From NCBI GenBank assembly GCA_009392215.1, contig VFGZ01000041.1, positions 1 to 64,000 on the forward strand: a stretch of 64,000 nucleotides of DNA, given 5' to 3'. This document shows positions 37,220 to 42,459 of the stretch, piece after piece. Under the pieces are notes generated by a model. The model saw only the letters and a program-made list of their open reading frames with translations. It had not been told where the DNA came from and searched no databases. The translations under genes and the position numbers were made by a program. The DNA is from SAR202 cluster bacterium. Its GTDB lineage: Bacteria > Chloroflexota > Dehalococcoidia > Lucifugimonadales > Lucifugimonadaceae. How positions within the stretch are numbered: position 1 is the first letter of the stretch; each line of letters opens with the position of its first letter.

Positions 37220-38398
37220 TTAGGCGTTGCTCGCAATTAACTTGTCGGAGGTCGTGACGCCTGCAATGGATAAAGCCGATTCGACAGCGTTACGTAAATC
37301 TTTTATGCCCCAGGCTTTCGTGGCTGATGTCGTCACGACGCGATTAAACTCTGCGGTCTCTATGTTCTTCATAATTTCTAAGCCTAGGGGTTCATATTCA
37401 GTTTCAACCATCAAATCTAATTTATTTAGGACAAGTATTTTCGGTGTGTCCCCTATTCCCATTTCAGATAGTTGGTTAGAAACCACCATGGCCTGTTCAG
37501 CGGCGTAAGGACTTGAAACGTCCGTTACTTGAATTAGCAAATCAGCTTCGAGGGCTTCCTCTAGCGTCGCCCGGAATGCTGCGATAAGAATCGGAGGCAA
37601 TTTGTGGACAAATCCTACTGTGTCACTGATTGTAGCCTCAATGCCGGATGGTAGGTACATACGGCGGGTCGTTGTGTCGAGGGTTGAAAACAACTGGTTT
37701 CGTTGGATCACTCCTGATGATGTGATCTTGTTGAACAGTGCTGATTTTCCTGCATTGGTGTAACCGACAATTGAGATGATTTTGGATGTTCCGCCGGTTC
37801 TCAGTTGTCGTTGTTGATCACGTTGTGATCGAATTTGAGCGAGTTCTCGTTTTACGCGTGATAATTTACGTCTAACCAATCTACGATCGGTTTCAATTTG
37901 CGTTTCACCCGGTCCCCTCGTACCGACGCCGCCGCCAAGTCTTTCAAGATGGGACCACTGTCCTGCCAGTCTTGGTAGCAGATATTCTGTCTGTGCTAAT
38001 TCGATCTGCAGGCGCCCTTCACGCGATCTAGCTCGCTGAGCGAAAACGTCAAGAATTAAGGCCGTCCTATCGATTACTTTCGCAGACAACTTTTCTTCAA
38101 GGATGCGTTGCTGGTTTGGTGACAGTTCGTCGTCAAAGATAACGGTATCTATATCTTCTTGTTTTACAGTGTGCTTAAGTTCTTGTATTTTCCCTTTGCC
38201 AAGGTAAGTGGGCGAAGGGTTGTTCATTGATTGTGTGAACCGCTTTACTGGGTTTGCGCCAGCAGCTCGAGCCAGCTCTGATAATTCCGCCAGCGAATCT
38301 TCCAGTTGCCAGATTTCCCCCGAAGTGCGTATGTTCACTCCTACTAAAATCGCACGCTCTCGGTATGGTCCTGTCGAATATGTACGTTTTTTTGGCAT
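37220..38398 (-). CDS. hflX: GTPase HflX
   Basis: NPSPTYLGKGKIQEL, LGGGVGTRGPGETQIETDRR, VGYTNAGKSALFN, DTVGFVHKLPP. Confidence 0.95.
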   Translation of the reverse strand: MPKKRTYSTGPYRERAILVGVNIRTSGEIWQLEDSLAELSELARAAGANPVKRFTQSMNNPSPTYLGKGKIQELKHTVKQEDIDTVIFDDELSPNQQRILEEKLSAKVIDRTALILDVFAQRARSREGRLQIELAQTEYLLPRLAGQWSHLERLGGGVGTRGPGETQIETDRRLVRRKLSRVKRELAQIRSQRDQQRQLRTGGTSKIISIVGYTNAGKSALFNKITSSGVIQRNQLFSTLDTTTRRMYLPSGIEATISDTVGFVHKLPPILIAAFRATLEEALEADLLIQVTDVSSPYAAEQAMVVSNQLSEMGIGDTPKILVLNKLDLMVETEYEPLGLEIMKNIETAEFNRVVTTSATKAWGIKDLRNAVESALSIAGVTTSDKLIASNA

Positions 38399-38425: not shown

Positions 38426-39610
38426 TCACTGGAGAGGGTTGTTAGCTTCCCCACCTCGCATCTGTGAAAGCCTACGGAGTCCTTCGTCTATTTGATCATC
38501 GGGTATGGTAAGCGAAAGTCTAATATATCCTTCTCCGCCTGGTCCGTATCCATTACCAGGGGTCACTACCACATTTGCTTCATCCAGTAATTTTTGGGCA
38601 AATTCGGCGGATGTATATCCGTCTGGTACAGGTGTCCATATATAAAGAGCGCCTTTTGGTGCTACAGCTGGAACCCCGATTTCATTTAGTACTGATACGA
38701 CCTTGTCACGACGTTTTCTATAAACCTCGTTATTCTCTGTAAGCCATTTTTCCGGTAAATCGAGTGCAGCGATGCCCATTTCTTGGTTCGCTTGAGATAG
38801 GCCTGAGTCGATATTGGATTTGACCCTCATAAGGGCGTTCACCATGTCCGGGTTGCCGGTGGCCATGCCAACCCGCCATCCGGTCATGTTGGCTGTTTTC
38901 GACAGGGAATGAAACTCCATAGCGATGTCCATTGCGCCCACAACCTGCAGAATGCTGGGAGCAACGTATCCGTCGAAGGTGACTTCGGTGTATGCGGCAT
39001 CATGTAGCAAGGCTATGTCGAATTCCTTGCAGTAATGTACAGCTTCTTCAAAGAAGCTCATTGGCGCGATTGCCCCTGTGGGATTGTTGGGGTAGTTGAT
39101 CCATAGAGTTTTCGCTTTTTTGGCTACTTCAGTTGGTATTGAGGTGAAATCAACGAGGTATTTGTTCTGTTCGCTCAAAGTGGTGAAGTGTGTTTTGCCA
39201 CCAGCGAACATCGTTCCGATCTCATAAACGGGATAGGCTGGATCCGGGCTGATCGAAATATCGCCTGGATCTATGAAGCATAGAGCGGTATGTGCTATTC
39301 CCTCTTTAGCTCCTATCAGATTGATTACTTCTGTTTCGGGGTTTACATTTACTCCGAATCGATCTTTATAGAATTTCGCTACCCGCCTTCTGAATTCGGG
39401 GAGGCCTTCGCTTTCTGGGTATCTGTGATTTTCTGGTTTCGTGGATCCCTTAATCAGTGCGTCTAGTACAGGCGTGGGAGTTTGCATATCTGGATCGCCA
39501 ATACCGAATGAAATTACATCAATGCCTTGTGCTTTTTTAGCTGCTATCGCTCGAGAAATATTCACGAACAGGTAGGGTGGTAGATTTTCAACACGTTCAG
39601 CAAATTTCAT
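38426..39610 (-). CDS. dapL: LL-diaminopimelate aminotransferase (class I/II PLP aminotransferase)
   Basis: ENLPPYLFVNISRAIAAKKAQGIDVISFGIGDPDM; SLSKTANMTGWRVG; likely ATG 39610; adjacent to dapF. Confidence 0.85.
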   Translation of the reverse strand: MKFAERVENLPPYLFVNISRAIAAKKAQGIDVISFGIGDPDMQTPTPVLDALIKGSTKPENHRYPESEGLPEFRRRVAKFYKDRFGVNVNPETEVINLIGAKEGIAHTALCFIDPGDISISPDPAYPVYEIGTMFAGGKTHFTTLSEQNKYLVDFTSIPTEVAKKAKTLWINYPNNPTGAIAPMSFFEEAVHYCKEFDIALLHDAAYTEVTFDGYVAPSILQVVGAMDIAMEFHSLSKTANMTGWRVGMATGNPDMVNALMRVKSNIDSGLSQANQEMGIAALDLPEKWLTENNEVYRKRRDKVVSVLNEIGVPAVAPKGALYIWTPVPDGYTSAEFAQKLLDEANVVVTPGNGYGPGGEGYIRLSLTIPDDQIDEGLRRLSQMRGGEANNPLQ

Positions 39611-39733
39611 TAAATTAGTTCCGTATTTTTTTGGGTAGTTGTATTGTTTTGCGGCCAGATTTACCAGAAGTAAACCGTAGTTACGCACAAGTGTGAGTTG
39701 TTGATTGTATCGTTCCTTTAGGCGCAACTATAT

Positions 39734-40588
39734 TTAATCAGGCCATACTCCTGTGAACACTTCAACCGCTGGACCTTCTAAGTAGGCCTGACCGGTTTCG
39801 TCCCACGAAATTTTGAGAATTCCGCCATCAACTATGACTTCGACTGCGTTATTCACTAAACCATGGGCTCGGGCTGCTGATGCGGCAGCAGTAGAACCAG
39901 TACCAGAAGACATTGTTTCGCCGGCGCCACGCTCGAATATTCTGGCCCTGATCTGTGACCGAGTAATTACGTTAACTATTTCAAAATTGATTCTGTTTGG
40001 AAATAACGGATGATTTTCTACATGAGGCCCAATATCGGTTAATGGAAATTCCTCCACAGGATCTTCGGTTATGACAACCGCATGTGGGTTTCCTACTGCA
40101 AGACATGTGATTTTCATATCGCGTCCTCCAGCCTTAATTGGAAAATCCTTTATGATTTCAAGGTCGCCAATTTCGGTAGTATTTACTGGTATTTCGTCCG
40201 GAATAAAGGTAGGTTCCCCCATGGCCACTTTGGCAGCAACCATTTTGTCGCCTTCCATCGTTGGCCATACGGTTCGCACGCCACCGCCGGTTTCAACGGT
40301 CAGGCCATTATCACTGGGTAAAGCTAATTTGCGGTCGATTACAAATTTTGCGAAAAGTCTGATGCCGTTTCCGCTCATTTCGGCTTCGGAGCCATCCGGG
40401 TTATAAACCCTCATGCGGATTTGTGCAATGTCAGAATCCTGGGCTAAAACAATTCCATCTGATCCAACGCCAAATGCTGGAACGCTCATTGCTTTTGAAA
40501 GCGCTCCCCAATCTCGTTCGATACCTCTACCATCTATCGCGATGTAATCGTTTCCAGCACCATGCAATTTTGTGAATTCAAGCGTCAT
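39734..40588 (-). CDS. dapF: Diaminopimelate epimerase-family protein with Ser/Ser in place of the catalytic Cys pair
   Basis: FTKLHGAGNDYI, DGSEAEMSGNGIRLFAKFV, GNPHAVV, RGAGETMSSGTGSTAAASA. Confidence 0.88.
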   Translation of the reverse strand: MTLEFTKLHGAGNDYIAIDGRGIERDWGALSKAMSVPAFGVGSDGIVLAQDSDIAQIRMRVYNPDGSEAEMSGNGIRLFAKFVIDRKLALPSDNGLTVETGGGVRTVWPTMEGDKMVAAKVAMGEPTFIPDEIPVNTTEIGDLEIIKDFPIKAGGRDMKITCLAVGNPHAVVITEDPVEEFPLTDIGPHVENHPLFPNRINFEIVNVITRSQIRARIFERGAGETMSSGTGSTAAASAARAHGLVNNAVEVIVDGGILKISWDETGQAYLEGPAVEVFTGVWPD

Positions 40589-40726: not shown

Positions 40727-41674
40727 TTACTTTAGTTGGTGCCACTGAGCAACCGCTGAGATGATCGATTGTGTTTTTTGCTGCGGTTCAAGCGTCATAT
40801 CGAACCATTTAATGCGCTTGTCGTTTTGTTTGAACCAGTTATTTTGGCGTCGTATTAAACGGTTTGTTGCAACAGCTGTAAGGCGTATTGCCTCCTTTAG
40901 GTCAGATTCACCGTTCAAGTGATCAATCATTTGCGGATAACCAATTGCACTAAGAGCGTGGTCCTTAGTTGAATATCCCTGATGTAAAAGGGATTCGACC
41001 TCTTGTCTCCATCCATTTTTGTCCATTGAATCGAGTCGTTCAACTATACGAGCATGTAAAGCTATCCGTTCAATCATCAAGCCGACAATGTAGTGATCGA
41101 ACGGTGAATGAGTTGATTTGCTTGGCGTGTATGTTGGATCTAAAGATCCTGATCGAACTCTTTCAATAGCCCGAATCACTCGCCTGGGATTTCGTAGATC
41201 GGTTGTTTGTGCCGTAGTTGGTGAAATCTCTAATAGTTTTTTAGCAAGAGGCTGGATACCATACCGAGCCAATTCGCACTCTAGTTGGGAGCGCAAGGAC
41301 GGATTTGGTTGAATTTCTGGAACGTTCCATCCCTCAATGATTGCCCAAACATATTGGCCAGACCCGCCTACCAAGATCGGTAGGTTACCTCGATCCAGAA
41401 TTTCGCTTATGGCTGATCGTGCCTGTTTGAGATATTCTGCGAGGCTGTACTGATCGTCTGGGGCGAGAAAGTCGATGAGATGGTGCGGAATGCCTTTTGT
41501 CTCGCCTGTCTTTGGTTTAGCGGTCGCTATATCCATTCCGCGGTAAAAAAGTCTAGAGTCGGCATTAACCACTTCTCCACCTAACTCCAGAGCTAATTCA
41601 ACTCCGAGTGCAGTTTTCCCGGTAGCGGTTGCGCCAATCACTGCAATGAGTTTCGGTCTAGATGTGTAATTCAC
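40727..41674 (-). CDS. miaA: tRNA dimethylallyltransferase MiaA
   Basis: AVIGATATGKTALGVELA, NADSRLFYRGMDIATAKP, VGGSGQYVWA. Confidence 0.95.
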   Translation of the reverse strand: MNYTSRPKLIAVIGATATGKTALGVELALELGGEVVNADSRLFYRGMDIATAKPKTGETKGIPHHLIDFLAPDDQYSLAEYLKQARSAISEILDRGNLPILVGGSGQYVWAIIEGWNVPEIQPNPSLRSQLECELARYGIQPLAKKLLEISPTTAQTTDLRNPRRVIRAIERVRSGSLDPTYTPSKSTHSPFDHYIVGLMIERIALHARIVERLDSMDKNGWRQEVESLLHQGYSTKDHALSAIGYPQMIDHLNGESDLKEAIRLTAVATNRLIRRQNNWFKQNDKRIKWFDMTLEPQQKTQSIISAVAQWHQLK

Positions 41675-41703: not shown

Positions 41704-42459
41704 TTATTTCGAGCTCGCTAGCCTGATCAGGTTTGAAAACTCCTGCGCGTTTAAACTTGCCCCACCCACTAATGCCCCATCTATGTCTGGCTGTTCAAGA
41801 AAATTGGTAACGTTTGTGGAATTCACGCTGCCTCCGTAAAGGATATGAACTGAATTGCTAAAATCAGGTGTCAAACTACAAATAATGTCACGGCAAACGG
41901 CCGCCATTTCTTGGGCTTGCCCACTTGTAGCGGCTTCGCCTGTTCCAATTGCCCATATTGGTTCATAAGCAATAATTAATGATTGCCAGTTTGAAAATCC
42001 TTGAAGGCTAGCTTCTAGTTGCTTTGTAATGAAGTTAACCGCTTTTCCGGATTTTCGAACGCTAAAGTCTTCACCGACACACAAGATGGGCGTTATTCCT
42101 GCTTTTGACGCGCTGATTGCTTTTTCTGAGACCTGATCAGATGATTCATCGTAAAACATGCGTCTTTCCGAGTGTCCTAATACGACGTGGCTAACCAAGC
42201 CGTGCAGCATCGCCGTAGATACTTCTCCTGTGAATGCACCGTTTTCATTTGCATTTACGTTCTGTGCTCCCAGTTGAATAGATGATCCTTTCAAGACTTT
42301 TGCAATGCTCGTCAACGAAACAAATGGCGGGCAAATGATTTTTTCAACGTTTGTTATGTTGTCGCTGAGATCGAGAATCTGTTTAGCCAAGTTGATTCCC
42401 GACTTAACTTCAGTGTTCATTTTCCAGTTGCCGACTATGATATTTTTTCGGTGTTTCAT
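41704..42459 (-). CDS. tpiA: Triosephosphate isomerase
   Basis: IIVGNWKMN, VVLGHSERR, AYEPIWAIGTG, ILYGGSVN. Confidence 0.97.
   Translation of the reverse strand: MKHRKNIIVGNWKMNTEVKSGINLAKQILDLSDNITNVEKIICPPFVSLTSIAKVLKGSSIQLGAQNVNANENGAFTGEVSTAMLHGLVSHVVLGHSERRMFYDESSDQVSEKAISASKAGITPILCVGEDFSVRKSGKAVNFITKQLEASLQGFSNWQSLIIAYEPIWAIGTGEAATSGQAQEMAAVCRDIICSLTPDFSNSVHILYGGSVNSTNVTNFLEQPDIDGALVGGASLNAQEFSNLIRLASSK

Follow-up and report, generated by a model that had tools for sequence, protein, structure and literature searches.

The window, that is, the whole 64,000-nucleotide stretch of SAR202 DNA that was analysed, carries on its minus strand a dapF gene whose predicted product has serine at both positions of the catalytic cysteine pair. 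The gene lies within a cluster that also holds dapL, and the features on which the analysis draws are these:

37220..38398, minus strand: hflX-like GTPase gene, downstream, part of the conserved cluster
38426..39727, minus strand: dapL, for the LL-DAP-supplying LL-diaminopimelate aminotransferase (NF006756 match above cut-off, 578 bits); next gene downstream of dapF
39734..40588, minus strand: dapF with a Ser/Ser catalytic dyad, 284 aa, from the ORF translation and from TIGR00652 and PDB matches; the sole DapF gene in the genome assembly
39905..39907, minus strand: Ser228, codon TCT, aligned with catalytic Cys217 and, in the structural model, directly preceding helix 229-241
39908..39910, minus strand: Ser227, codon TCT, invariant in the SAR202 Ser/Ser clade and Ala in nearly all Cys/Cys relatives
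40373..40375, minus strand: Ser72, codon AGC, aligned with catalytic Cys73 of H. influenzae DapF and, in the model, directly preceding helix 73-85
40727..41674, minus strand: miaA-like gene, upstream of dapF, in conserved cluster order
41704..42459, minus strand: tpiA-like gene (triosephosphate isomerase), part of the conserved cluster

The genes that we take to be miaA, tpiA and hflX were named from recognised sequence and not from a family scan, with conserved gene order as additional evidence for miaA.

The dapF product is encoded by a complete, full-length ORF and scores 229 bits against the DapF equivalog model TIGR00652, twice the cut-off of 114.65, and 170 bits against PF01678. A first-pass annotation of this DNA had reported that both catalytic cysteines are replaced by serine (AGC at 40375-40373 and TCT at 39907-39905) and that dapL adjoins the gene; re-reading of codons and translation found the former exact, and the NF006756 match directly downstream bears out the latter. 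Ser72 lies in the motif EMSGNGIR and Ser228 in GETMSSGTGS, and in a PDB sequence search the two serines line up with the catalytic cysteines of DapF proteins of known structure. The 17 matches of that search comprise DapF entries and O-ureidoserine racemase, with no HisR or CntK entry among them, and identity as a histidine racemase of the HisR/CntK type was rejected. The protein departs from canonical DapF in one defining feature, the Cys pair (Cys73/Cys217 in H. influenzae numbering), and thus is, as judged from its sequence, a new variant of DapF.

Apart from sulfur, the Ser/Ser protein retains the active-site features of DapF, as far as sequence and model go. The DapF mechanism uses a thiolate/thiol pair at two helix N-termini, a carboxylate held by backbone amides and a site closed to water (PMC12039745). 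In an AlphaFold2 model of the window protein (pLDDT 94), each serine stands directly before a helix N-terminus, and the best PDB matches found by Foldseek are all DapF proteins of the same two-domain fold (TM about 0.85-0.88, 25-38% identity). Alanine mutants of N15, N74, N85, N159, N194, E212, R213 and T223 are inactive in C. glutamicum DapF, as are C83A and C221A (PMC5296763). The window equivalents of the eight non-cysteine residues (N13, N63, N74, N167, N201, E219, R220 and T230) show no substitution across the 72 Ser/Ser proteins compared, with one row gapped at N13. Other sites diagnostic of the clade are L8, I16, A17, L78, V83, L163, I217, F218, S227 and T233.

The dyad is a constant trait of the window's SAR202 family. 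DapF was found in 221 of the 250 genomes of the order searched, and all 60 distinct DapF proteins read from the family are Ser/Ser, with identities to the window protein down to about 56%; whether the serines mark a conserved clade, a point raised by the first-pass annotation, is thereby answered in the affirmative. One of them (locus L079) comes from Candidatus Lucifugimonas marina JH1073, a cultured strain with a complete genome. Codon 72 is AGY and codon 228 is TCN in 60/60 family sequences, with third positions varying freely, and the only serines of the window protein that never vary across the clade are Ser72, Ser227 and Ser228. Values of dN/dS are 0.03-0.10 in close pairs (median 0.17 over all unsaturated pairs, many of them distant), and by this measure dapF is under strong purifying selection in the family. 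At 85% completeness, the draft assembly of the window genome would leave room for errors of sequencing, assembly or annotation or for a degraded paralogue, but such an origin of the serines is extremely improbable: the same residues occur in >60 independent genomes, including closed ones such as JH1073, which excludes the sequence error once entertained for this gene, and each genome has one intact copy under strong purifying selection.

As reconstructed from gene order and phylogeny, the SAR202 Ser/Ser dyad arose a single time, from a Cys/Cys ancestor that occupied the same locus. The cluster tpiA-miaA-dapF-dapL-hflX is common to the Ser/Ser family and to Cys/Cys sister families, so the change from Cys to Ser happened in place. 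All SAR202-type Ser/Ser proteins fall in one clade (SH-aLRT 100) nested among the Cys/Cys DapFs of the order, and synteny and tree together disfavour horizontal replacement of dapF in SAR202. The cluster does vary in detail: in genus g11 of the window's family, three loci (L036, L101 and L107) have no dapL between dapF and hflX, and a close relative (L105) retains it. Sister families of the order have the Cys/Cys dyad, with one Ser/Cys exception (L044, genome G040). This gene was rejected as an evolutionary intermediate because its Ser codon, TCC, belongs to the other codon box and because it branches in another part of the tree; it also has Asn74 changed to Asp (SGDG), the sole DAP-contact change among the Ser-type DapFs compared column by column. 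One Cys/Cys dapF (L066, genome G228) is interrupted by one in-frame TGA close to residue 245 and remote from the catalytic cysteines, reflecting either an error or a pseudogene. From the Cys/Cys group to SAR202, the cysteine content of DapF drops sharply (1.63% to 0.65%), whereas those of DapL, TpiA and HflX drop little, and general cysteine avoidance in SAR202 was rejected on this contrast; MiaA has low cysteine content in both groups (0.46% and 0.20%).

The Ser/Ser gene is the only DapF detected in these genomes. PF01678 searches found one DapF gene in the window genome and one in each of seven other genomes of the family, of which three are single contigs, and no second DapF in the window genome or the searched family genomes. 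A Cys/Cys DapF elsewhere in the window genome, which had been envisaged, was therefore not found, and the accompanying proposal of an inactive paralogue is disfavoured by the single DapF gene per genome and by its position as orthologue of the Cys/Cys dapF. The gene lysA, whose presence had likewise been in question, does occur in the window genome, split over two contig ends (C22 and C10; L033 and L034), so that automatic annotation may call it missing or partial. It is present in 26/26 high-quality family genomes and dapB in 21/21. Meso-DAP dehydrogenase (Ddh) was detected in 0/21 family genomes, and a bypass through this enzyme was rejected accordingly. SAR202 lacks peptidoglycan genes and grows at 0.18-0.24 per day (PMC10444878), so meso-DAP should be needed for lysine only.

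With no cell-wall need for meso-DAP in the family, and with Cys-to-Ser mutants of related racemases nearly inactive, the Ser/Ser protein could be catalytically dead and persist in a structural or regulatory role or as a binder of DAP, for instance in partnership with DapL, while lysine is imported or made by a backup route. We regard this as improbable, because serine at both positions in 60/60 proteins together with eight retained substrate contacts is not expected of a dead site, nor is a second origin of Ser/Ser beside lysA, and lysA and dapB are retained throughout.

That second origin emerged from a phylum-wide sample of 400 genomes, from which 60 more dapF genes were read. Sole DapFs with serine occur elsewhere in Chloroflexota, as Ser/Cys in families f58, f46, f54 and f13, Cys/Ser in f49 and Ser/Ser in f93; each examined genome of the Ser-bearing lineages has one DapF gene, and all have lysA. 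The tree needs two origins of Ser/Ser, four of Ser/Cys and one of Cys/Ser, and its well-supported branches alone force at least two, at least two and at least one, respectively. The Ser/Ser dapF of f93, again the sole DapF, adjoins lysA in 4/4 genomes, in different orientations. With dapL beside the SAR202 gene and lysA beside the f93 gene, both Ser/Ser lineages are linked to DAP/lysine genes. The Cys/Ser DapFs of f49 (L293, L294 and L301) have the motif ASGTSA/S; like the f93 Ser/Ser proteins, they also have Ser in place of the second helix glycine.

We favour, with moderate confidence, the reading that the window dapF encodes a working epimerase converting LL-DAP to meso-DAP, in which the serine hydroxyls of Ser72 and Ser228 would take the place of the two thiols. 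The presence of DapL next door, the retention of LysA and DapB, the lack of Ddh and the full conservation of substrate contacts speak for it. In this scheme DapL would supply LL-DAP, the Ser/Ser DapF would convert it to meso-DAP and LysA would use the product. Substrate binding and domain closure would proceed as in DapF, and Ser72 and Ser228, at helix N-termini in a water-free closed site, would serve as the base and the acid on opposite faces of the alpha carbon, one serine deprotonating it and the other reprotonating it, slowly. Turnover would probably be much slower than with cysteine, which may be tolerable in cells that divide about every 3-4 days, make no peptidoglycan and need meso-DAP for lysine alone. 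By rough estimate, the lysine demand of a 0.1 cubic-micron cell with a growth rate of 0.2 per day is about ten molecules per second, which, again roughly, a few hundred enzyme copies turning over at <0.1 per second would meet; the turnover of C. glutamicum DapF is 58 per second (PMC5296763). An enzyme of this kind would, in addition, be immune to the oxidative inactivation that Cys/Cys DapF undergoes through disulfide formation. Several points count against serine catalysis. In HisR, replacing Cys by Ser lowers turnover greatly (PMC11602996); crystallographers make the same substitution on purpose to impede catalysis (PMC12039745), and the advantage of Cys is held to lie in a lower pKa and easier desolvation (PMC8142540). 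Moreover, no new acidic, basic or His residue that might assist the serines occurs at the clade-diagnostic sites, and the isolation medium of the cultured SAR202 strain was supplemented with amino acids, so that growth of that strain need not reflect lysine prototrophy. The broader proposition, that both thiols of a two-base epimerase have become alcohols at least twice in Chloroflexota and that lysine synthesis in abundant ocean bacteria draws its meso-DAP solely from an active Ser/Ser enzyme, we hold to be evenly balanced.

No report of a natural Ser/Ser DapF was found in the literature searched, which included few subscription papers. Compared with canonical DapF (structures from H. influenzae, B. 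anthracis, C. glutamicum and Anabaena), the window enzyme has the same fold, length and eight tested DAP-contact side chains, the same placement of catalytic residues at helix N-termini and a DAP-pathway gene neighbourhood; it differs in the replacement of both Cys by Ser, in Ser227 for Ala and Phe218 for Trp before Glu-Arg, and in lacking a redox-sensitive thiol pair. Aspartate/glutamate racemases belong to a fold family other than that of DapF. In two of these, EcL-DER and MMP0739, one catalytic Cys has likewise given way to a natural hydroxyl residue, and one-way racemisation has been reported or predicted (PMC8142540), but both retain the other Cys (Cys/Thr pair). Cys-to-Ser changes at the same catalytic positions are found in H. 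influenzae DapF C73S and C217S (PDB 2q9h and 2q9j) and HisR C67S/C209S; those are single mutants, made in the laboratory to weaken the enzyme, whereas in SAR202 both serines occur in a natural, sole and conserved gene. The proline racemase superfamily shares the fold superfamily, and eLife 2014 e03275 describes natural Ser at one catalytic position in Ser-Cys and Ser-Thr dyads, those of 4-hydroxyproline epimerases and 3-hydroxyproline dehydratases, in a passage that makes no mention of Ser/Ser. These enzymes act on other substrates, and identity of the window protein as a dehydratase of this superfamily was rejected, since Foldseek identities are about 12-15% versus 25-38% for DapF and the dyad is Ser/Ser, neither Cys/Thr nor Ser/Thr.

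Thiolate/thiol chemistry is the accepted account of cofactor-independent epimerases. If the window protein does epimerize DAP with serine, helix dipoles, carboxylate dispersion and solvent exclusion would suffice for the reaction without sulfur, aziridine-type inhibitors, which act by alkylating the Cys, would be expected to fail against the enzyme, and the system would probe the catalytic power that slow growth demands.

A different possibility, unlikely in our view though one that deserves weight, is that the Ser/Ser protein binds DAP or a close analogue and carries out other chemistry (for example, elimination, one-way proton exchange or a reaction on another amino acid), with meso-DAP made by an unrelated, unrecognised epimerase or with LysA taking LL-DAP. 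Ser/Thr changes alter the reaction type in related racemases, and a Cys-to-Thr change turns an epimerase into a dehydratase (PMC8142540). Close to the PLP lysine, SAR202 LysA (L155-L174) also shows a few changes peculiar to the clade, such as A74S, two residues before that lysine (YSSKAF); Y116N and V139T are likewise SAR202-specific. However, this LysA keeps its CESGD, EPGR and GAY motifs intact, and the LysA encoded beside other Ser-type DapFs, including those of the second Ser/Ser lineage, lacks the SAR202-specific changes; the lack of any LysA change common to the Ser-DapF lineages argues against a switch to LL-DAP. The SAR202 gene also occupies the same locus, with the same neighbour dapL, as its Cys/Cys orthologues, its DAP contacts are all retained, and the second Ser/Ser lineage adjoins lysA as well. 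Were the window protein not an epimerase, SAR202 lysine synthesis would have to include a step not yet recognised. In both cases, the route to lysine in this abundant ocean clade, hidden by current automatic annotation, deserves a closer look.

The main caution for reading the SAR202 protein as an epimerase, and a further point for other chemistry, comes from Myxococcota. SAR202-type Ser/Ser DapF occurs in twelve genomes of one class of that phylum, each with a second, canonical Cys/Cys DapF-like gene (dyad read for G250 and G251); the canonical dapF of G250 has neighbours resembling dapB and dapA. Sequence comparison suggests that the Ser/Ser copy was transferred from the SAR202 lineage, and there it is an extra protein that may have another role. 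This extra gene is next to a TraB-like gene in 9/12 loci (L221-L232), a neighbourhood uninformative on function. Genome G299 (C145:54774-54974) has only a 67-aa dapF fragment with an in-frame TAG. A further DapF-like paralogue, with 34-38% identity to the Myxococcota Ser/Ser query, accompanies canonical DapF in several genomes (for example, G305:C10:92355-93173 and G263:C248:5301-6113).
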